DNA of 33,765 nucleotides. Origin: Methylacidiphilum caldifontis (GTDB lineage Bacteria > Verrucomicrobiota > Verrucomicrobiia > Methylacidiphilales > CAMAQI01). The notes beneath the pieces were generated by a model. That model did no database searches, was not told the origin of the DNA, and was given only the letters and a program-made list of their open reading frames with translations. Below are positions 1-166 of this stretch, one piece after another. The stretch spans positions 1 through 33,765 of the forward strand of contig CAMCSM010000022.1 of the NCBI GenBank assembly GCA_945877805.1, in the 5' to 3' direction. The stretch's first letter is position 1; each line of letters opens with the position of its first letter. The translations under genes and the position numbers were made by a program.

Positions 1-141
1 AAAAGGGAAACCCTTGGAGAACTCTTTGAACGACTTTCGTCGGAAGCGAGCAGAACTTGAAGAGCCCTGTGCGAGAAATCCGCACGCAGGGATCTGTGCG
101 GGGGGATCTGATGCCAGCGGCATCAGATTCCCTACCGCGAT
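1..141 (+). mobile_element. 3' end of a group II intron (domains V and VI), cut by the left edge
   Basis: Bases 62-94 fold as a group II intron domain V: GAGCCCTG pairs with CAGGGATC, an inner TGCG/CGCA stem carries a GAAA-type loop, and the AGC catalytic-triad position near the start is kept. Domain VI follows as a hairpin with arms 106-115 and 119-128, and the intron ends with CCTACCGCGAT at 131-141, matching the usual purine-rich end plus AY. Frame 1 is open from base 1 to a stop at 58-60 and could be the last 19 codons of the intron-encoded reverse transcriptase, but that is too short to tell. The rest of the intron lies outside the window. Recognition is by secondary structure and remembered consensus of bacterial introns, not by a covariance model. 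Confidence 0.72.
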
Positions 142-166
142 AAACGGCAGTTCAACTGCCGTTTTT
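142..166 (+). terminator. Perfect hairpin plus T-run directly after the intron
   Basis: AAACGGCAGTT (142-152) and AACTGCCGTTT (154-164) are perfect inverted repeats around one base, followed by more T. This has the form of an intrinsic terminator reading rightward. It starts on the first base of the 3' exon of the group II intron. Confidence 0.55.

Follow-up and report, generated by a model that had tools for sequence, protein, structure and literature searches.

Background

The closest known case to the locus analysed here is that of RmInt1 in Sinorhizobium meliloti, whose natural homing site is described as lying within ISRm2011-2, a multi-copy insertion sequence of the IS630 family (PMC5894124). 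Group IIC introns are reported to use terminators or attC motifs as insertion sites, the stem lying upstream of the intron (PMC4424553, PMC7923331). Thermosynechococcus elongatus is described as containing many group II introns that fall into families, most of them at sites with a matching IBS and some inside other mobile introns (PMC2882425), and the MITEtron of Thiomargarita nelsonii is presented as a MITE residing inside a group I intron (PMC4853749).

The window, by which we mean the whole 33,765 nt stretch of Methylacidiphilum caldifontis DNA that was analysed, begins with a different arrangement. It opens on the tail of a multi-copy group II intron. We consider it very probable that this intron has the homing site TTAA(x)CCTAA|A (the bar marks the junction) at the edge of a MITE-like element, and that the hairpin immediately following the intron is the remainder of a 33-bp element that the intron has split.

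Results and discussion

A group II intron ends at base 141

The features of the window referred to below are as follows.

1-141, + strand: 3' end of a group II intron belonging to the sequence family we call family A (RF00029 at 60-141; 1-141 repeated within the same genome; the remainder lies beyond the contig start)
62-94, + strand: domain V (sequence inside the RF00029 match; exact limits set by eye)
98-138, + strand: domain VI helix (inverted repeat 102-115/119-132 and predicted fold; presumed limits)
134, + strand: probable branch-point A of domain VI
142-169, + strand: the 28 remaining bases of a 33-bp palindromic MITE-like element, comprising the inner part of the left terminal repeat and the whole of the right one (once CCTAA is restored, C61:8325-8357 is its exact reverse complement; the genome has 24 exact terminal repeats)
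170-174, + strand: probable right-hand 5-bp target-site duplication, TTAAG (the sole TTAAG-CCTAA among the 12 5' exons is that of C46)
300-557, + strand: Phd/YefM-type antitoxin gene, a neighbour outside the element (PF02604)
545-847, + strand: ParE-type toxin gene, a neighbour outside the element (PF05016)

An Rfam search of the window, a check proposed in the preliminary description of this DNA, returns RF00029 at 60-141 on the + strand over the full model (1-77), with 44.5 bits against a gathering score of 40. The match stops exactly at base 141, the intron boundary which that description had drawn from domains V and VI. Group II introns have the consensus ends 5' GTGYG and 3' AY; the final intron letters in the window are CCTACCGCGAT at 141, giving a 3' end of ...CGAT, and GTGCGCC begins the intron at 12 5' junctions on other contigs. 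The region 55-175, which includes domains V-VI and the hairpin, folds with z = -6.64, and none of 200 shuffles did equally well. Neither domains I-IV nor a reverse transcriptase can be seen to the left of base 1, because base 1 is the contig start and the window is the whole of contig G000:C22. Bases 1-141 are found again, whole or in part, where other contigs of this genome end, and are followed there by different 3' neighbours, which disposes of the possibility, raised earlier, that they are ordinary conserved intergenic sequence.

Intron copies coincide with contig ends

The genome assembly consists of 169 contigs (2.94 Mb), and most of the counts given here refer to 121 of them (1.23 of 2.94 Mb), namely C50-C169 and the window. 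With 150 of 228 first-look candidates scored, RF00029 was found at no fewer than 21 places at E <= 0.001, 17 of them over the cut-off, and the 3' ends, judged by eye, represent at least three intron sequence families. At least 12 of these 3' ends belong to family A (11 of the matches over the cut-off, plus a shorter copy on C128). All 12 lie no more than about 150 nt from a contig end; the contigs break inside the intron, presumably because a repeat longer than the assembler's word halts assembly. Such a break would leave no intron interior to the left of base 1, and it is probably also the reason that no RVT_1 or GIIM domain is matched in the whole assembly, in which every family A copy is partial; that the family A intron is ORF-less is a possible alternative account of the missing domains.

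Clustering of contig ends (C50-C169) yielded one cluster starting with GTGCGCCAAGCAAAGC, which is similar to a group II 5' end and begins at a fixed point after unique flanks. At least 12 such 5' junctions were located: a search of the whole genome gave nine followed by the full 124 nt of intron used as query and two followed by 38 nt (C9) and 34 nt (C76), and a twelfth, on C141, is followed by only 11 nt. The last three, cut at 11-38 nt and joined to other sequence, are probable intron remnants. The Rfam intron models give no match to the 204 nt of family A 5' sequence. Copy number and the repetition of the insertion site both suggest that family A is a mobile, multi-copy group II intron.

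Two further families were noticed in the same genome. One has seven copies (C30, two on C117, C104, C25, C27 and C33; L015-L021), with domain VI ending near CCATCCGAT; by eye, six of the seven 3' exons are fragments of a different dispersed repeat with ends CCCATTTCTTGCATT, and a possible 5' end of this family, GTGTGCCCAGCATGGGC (C118, C142), stands after a stem GGCAGACGGCGTCTGCC-CCTC, resembling the classic after-hairpin rule. The other, on C87 (L003), has the 3' end CTCTAC, and its 3' exon TTAACCACAAAAGGTTCG is the inner module found in some elements that family A targets.

Full-length relatives of the intron

At the blastn level family A was found in none of the others among 98 related genomes; a survey of 387 genomes from the phylum gave matches in 13 others, for the most part confined to domain V. 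The relatives compared for a domain V of this kind are 80 loci out of at least 107 stretches, several loci coming from one species; 12 of the 80 were skipped and 68 tested. Two genomes of the same class, represented by L334 and L335, contain in order, over about 2 kb, a start GTGCGCC[AG]AGCAAAGC, an open frame for a reverse transcriptase and a domain V resembling that of the window, and they share with family A 17 (L334) and 15 (L335) of the first 17 intron bases. The L334 reverse transcriptase is of the TIGR04416 type (group II reverse transcriptase/maturase, 350 bits) and its RNA matches RF02005 with 56.7 bits (gathering score 49). Aligned to L335, the 5' 204 nt of family A reach a local score of 56, compared with an average of 40 and a maximum of 59 for 200 shuffles. 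The full introns tie the 5' and 3' junctions into one family and support the reading that the family A 5' end and the window 3' end belong to one intron; the L335 score, which does not exceed the best shuffle, counts against it.

Two observations concern other introns among these loci. At L203, L211, L213, L241, L243 and L253 of Telmatospirillum siberiense a related intron lies beside a repeat, one copy of which is diverged, with GGCGGACGGATGTCCGCC about 30 nt downstream (by eye); these loci, at least six, look like another multi-copy intron within a dispersed palindromic repeat. In L332 (genome G225, 1122-1754) the RF02001 domains and domain V are only about 380 nt apart, too close for a full reverse transcriptase, and this intron is probably ORF-less or deleted.

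A shared sequence at the junctions

Eleven of the 12 5' junctions read CCTAA|GTGCGCC, the exception being C169 with CCTGA; TTAA occurs within the five bases before CCTAA in 11 of the 12 5' exons; and every one of the 12 3' exons starts with A (AAACGGCAGTT, ATTCGGCA, AAAAAGCAGTTGG and others). Family A copies share the site TTAA(x)CCTAA|A, with a conserved 5' exon stretch of about 9 nt, and its CCTAA coincides with the outermost bases of the terminal repeat in a family of short dispersed elements. Read behind CCTAA, eight of the 12 3' exons are element ends (by eye, C110 being weak and the least certain), and the four on C50, C65, C89 and C91 are not recognisable as element interiors.

Of 12 occupied sites 11 have TTAA in the flank, compared with 16 of the 52 free element ends (Fisher p = 1.5e-4), a comparison picked after the junctions had been seen, and one in which the 52 free ends are not fully independent, as an element has the same duplication on its two sides. 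Given this enrichment, the intron site appears to span duplicated host bases and the element edge. As a candidate EBS1 we considered 8 nt complementary to TTAACCTA within the 204 nt of 5' intron sequence of the C61 copy; this candidate was rejected, since a complementarity of 8 or more arises in 115 of 2000 shuffles, and since L334 and L335 have the stretch that is complementary to their own exon ends deeper in the intron, beyond the 204 nt (by eye).

The interrupted elements look like MITEs

Elements of the family are 33-248 bp long on the 121 contigs and are bounded by the terminal repeat CCTAA[AT]3CGGCAGTT, with ends CCTAAATTCGGCAGTT. The terminal repeat pattern CCTAAAWWCGGCARTT has 24 exact copies in the genome, none in genus mate G001 and two in genus mate G002, where both have another interior and run to contig ends; it occurs once each in two of 95 other genomes searched. 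The reversed control pattern is found nowhere in the genome of the window and once in one of 98 genomes. We identified 14 element pairs. Two of them, 1147 and 2014 bp long, have one end in common with shorter pairs, and a third, on C105, stops at the contig end, leaving 11 that could be tested for target-site duplication. Exact 5-bp duplications flank seven of these 11 two-ended elements and are lacking from the other four; among four further elements examined through their flanks, exact duplications are present for C4, C25 and C35 and absent for C15. Because of these exact 5-bp direct duplications, together with their short length and multi-copy terminal inverted repeats, the dispersed elements look like MITEs.

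In elements holding an intron the right-hand duplication matches a 5' exon in four of five testable copies, but only TTAAG (C46) is discriminating, TTAAA and TTTAA being common 5-mers; none of the 12 5' exons matches the C4 duplication, ATTAT, and two matches on C89, with 3 mismatches, were discarded as spurious. From the TTAAG match we infer that C46 is the left neighbour of C22 across the intron. The last gene of C46, a DUF5069 gene, is oriented away from the junction, and on C22 there follow a toxin-antitoxin pair of the Phd/YefM-ParE type and an NtrC-type regulator; a search of the relatives with two of the genes found no neighbouring pair. No viral contigs were found.

The hairpin beside the intron

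Directly after base 141 the window does contain, as the preliminary description had it, an 11-bp perfect inverted repeat with a T-run: the arms are 142-152 (AAACGGCAGTT) and 154-164 (AACTGCCGTTT) with one base between, and TTTTT occupies 162-166. As a hairpin it has 10 pairs (5 G-C), a 3-nt loop and -13.2 kcal/mol. The repeat finder, at its default minimum of 12, does not list this 11-bp repeat at 142-164. With CCTAA in front, 142-169 becomes a 33-bp palindrome that folds, when intact, as a 15-bp perfect hairpin. The uninterrupted counterpart on C61 has its own 5-bp duplication, TTGAT, and sits between convergent ORFs; a copy on C101, two letters off at one or other end, sits between divergent ORFs.

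One could take the hairpin for the intrinsic terminator of the upstream gene, beside which the intron merely landed. The stem of 10 bp, 5 of them G-C, with TTTTT after it, and the position of the C61 copy between convergent ORFs, fit this explanation. We nonetheless judge it improbable, since the C101 copy lies between divergent ORFs (as the window hairpin also would if C46, with its DUF5069 gene, is the neighbour), the TTGAT duplication and the longer family members mark transposition, and a terminator scan of the window leaves the site unflagged. These opposed settings on C61 and C101, together with the gene context of C46 and C22, make a dedicated terminator role for the window hairpin unlikely; the stem and T-run could terminate transcription if read. 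For the same reason, that similar 33-bp palindromes occur between both convergent and divergent ORFs, the earlier suggestion that the hairpin belongs to the control of the next gene is unsupported.

It was also suggested at the outset that the target rule may be different. One such rule would be based on the hairpin, a stem-loop on the 3' exon side being recognised as a mirror of the group IIC rule. Two of the 12 copies in this genome, C22 and C50, have a 9-10 bp perfect stem starting from the first exon base, and the intact 33-mer can form its longer hairpin, but no stem of 7 or more pairs is present in the other 10, nor in any of the 68 relatives tested (with 12 of 80 skipped). Element interiors, moreover, are no commoner among intron 3' exons (8/12) than behind free TTAA(N)CCTAA|A sites on the 121 contigs (16/21, although four of these 16, on C22, C99, C103 and C161, are the distal ends of elements in which the intron already sits; Fisher p = 0.69), and with no such difference the short sequence alone can account for targeting. 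On the stem counts we rejected the hairpin as a target rule; it is probably no target signal, and recognition of this kind seems to us very improbable. The C50 copy (L007, 147-175) carries on its 3' side a different 9-bp hairpin with a T-run (AAAGCGCAG...CTGCGCTTTTT), perhaps a diverged element.

Group IIC introns commonly have CGC in domain V, whereas family A has AGC. If family A were nevertheless a group IIC intron obeying the known rule, a hairpin would be expected in the 5' exon, directly upstream of the 5' junction. Stems of at least 7 pairs ending within 20 nt upstream do occur in two of the 12 5' exons (a 14-bp terminator-like stem on C161 and an A/T-only 10-bp stem on C139), compared with 14 of 2400 shuffled exons, so that they are commoner than chance and yet no rule, being absent from the other 10. 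The full relative L334 matches RF02005, and the conserved 5' exon stretch of about 9 nt exceeds the 3-4 bp of pairing that the source describes for group IIC introns (PMC7923331). Membership of group IIC under its known rule is thus extremely improbable, and the initial impression that this arrangement departs from the usual IIC one is borne out. The hairpin is most likely the split target of the intron, neither a new hairpin rule nor clearly a terminator.

Proposed mechanism and implications

The preferred homing site of family A would be TTAA(x)CCTAA|A, in the window copy presumably TTAACCTAA|A, where CCTAA|A is the outer edge of the element's terminal inverted repeat and TTAA the host DNA duplicated at element insertion. 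The intron would reverse-splice 5 nt inside the element edge, the element interior becoming the 3' exon wherever an element is the target. In the window the element would consist of two terminal repeats back to back (33 bp), an arrangement that produces a perfect hairpin from the first exon base. Recognition presumably occurs through EBS-IBS pairing, and a group II reverse transcriptase is the presumed driver.

A broader scenario, which we offer tentatively and with some doubt, is that this intron lineage was reprogrammed to the joint between MITE end and target-site duplication, so that mainly TTAA-type MITE insertions become homes and each MITE jump mints new targets; other lineages, also found in dispersed repeats, would then use a shared landing field. 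For a retroelement that needs a rare exact target, the locus suggests a route to high copy number, namely to match the ends of a target-making DNA transposon. Recognition seems to extend into the duplicated host bases, so that the intron would respond not only to the end of the transposon but also to its insertion preference. On the practical side, the intron copies explain contig breaks seen in this assembly, and the locus cautions against inferring hairpin targeting whenever an intron adjoins a hairpin.

Comparison with known systems

Group IIC introns, as the cited sources describe them, resemble family A in that the intron adjoins an inverted repeat; the IIC stem lies on the 5' exon side and pairing extends over 3-4 bp, whereas family A has a 3' stem in 2/12 copies, an upstream stem in 2/12 and a consensus of about 9 nt. 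In T. elongatus, going by the same account of its introns, the mobile host is another intron (twintrons), while for family A it is the edge of a MITE. The MITEtron, as presented in its source, likewise nests an intron and a MITE in one bacterium, and family A reverses the order, with a group II intron inside a MITE-like element.

RmInt1, in the description drawn on here, is like family A a group II intron with its homing site in a multi-copy transposable element, and it also uses ectopic sites with a similar IBS. Its target lies within an insertion sequence, whereas that of family A consists of the outermost 5 nt of a non-coding element and the duplicated host bases. Among the matches listed in a search of the open-access literature (titles and abstract starts), none describes a group II intron that homes to the end of a MITE or to a joint between MITE end and duplication. 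A transposon as homing site is already known; what is new here is a homing site that would straddle duplicated host DNA and the transposon end.
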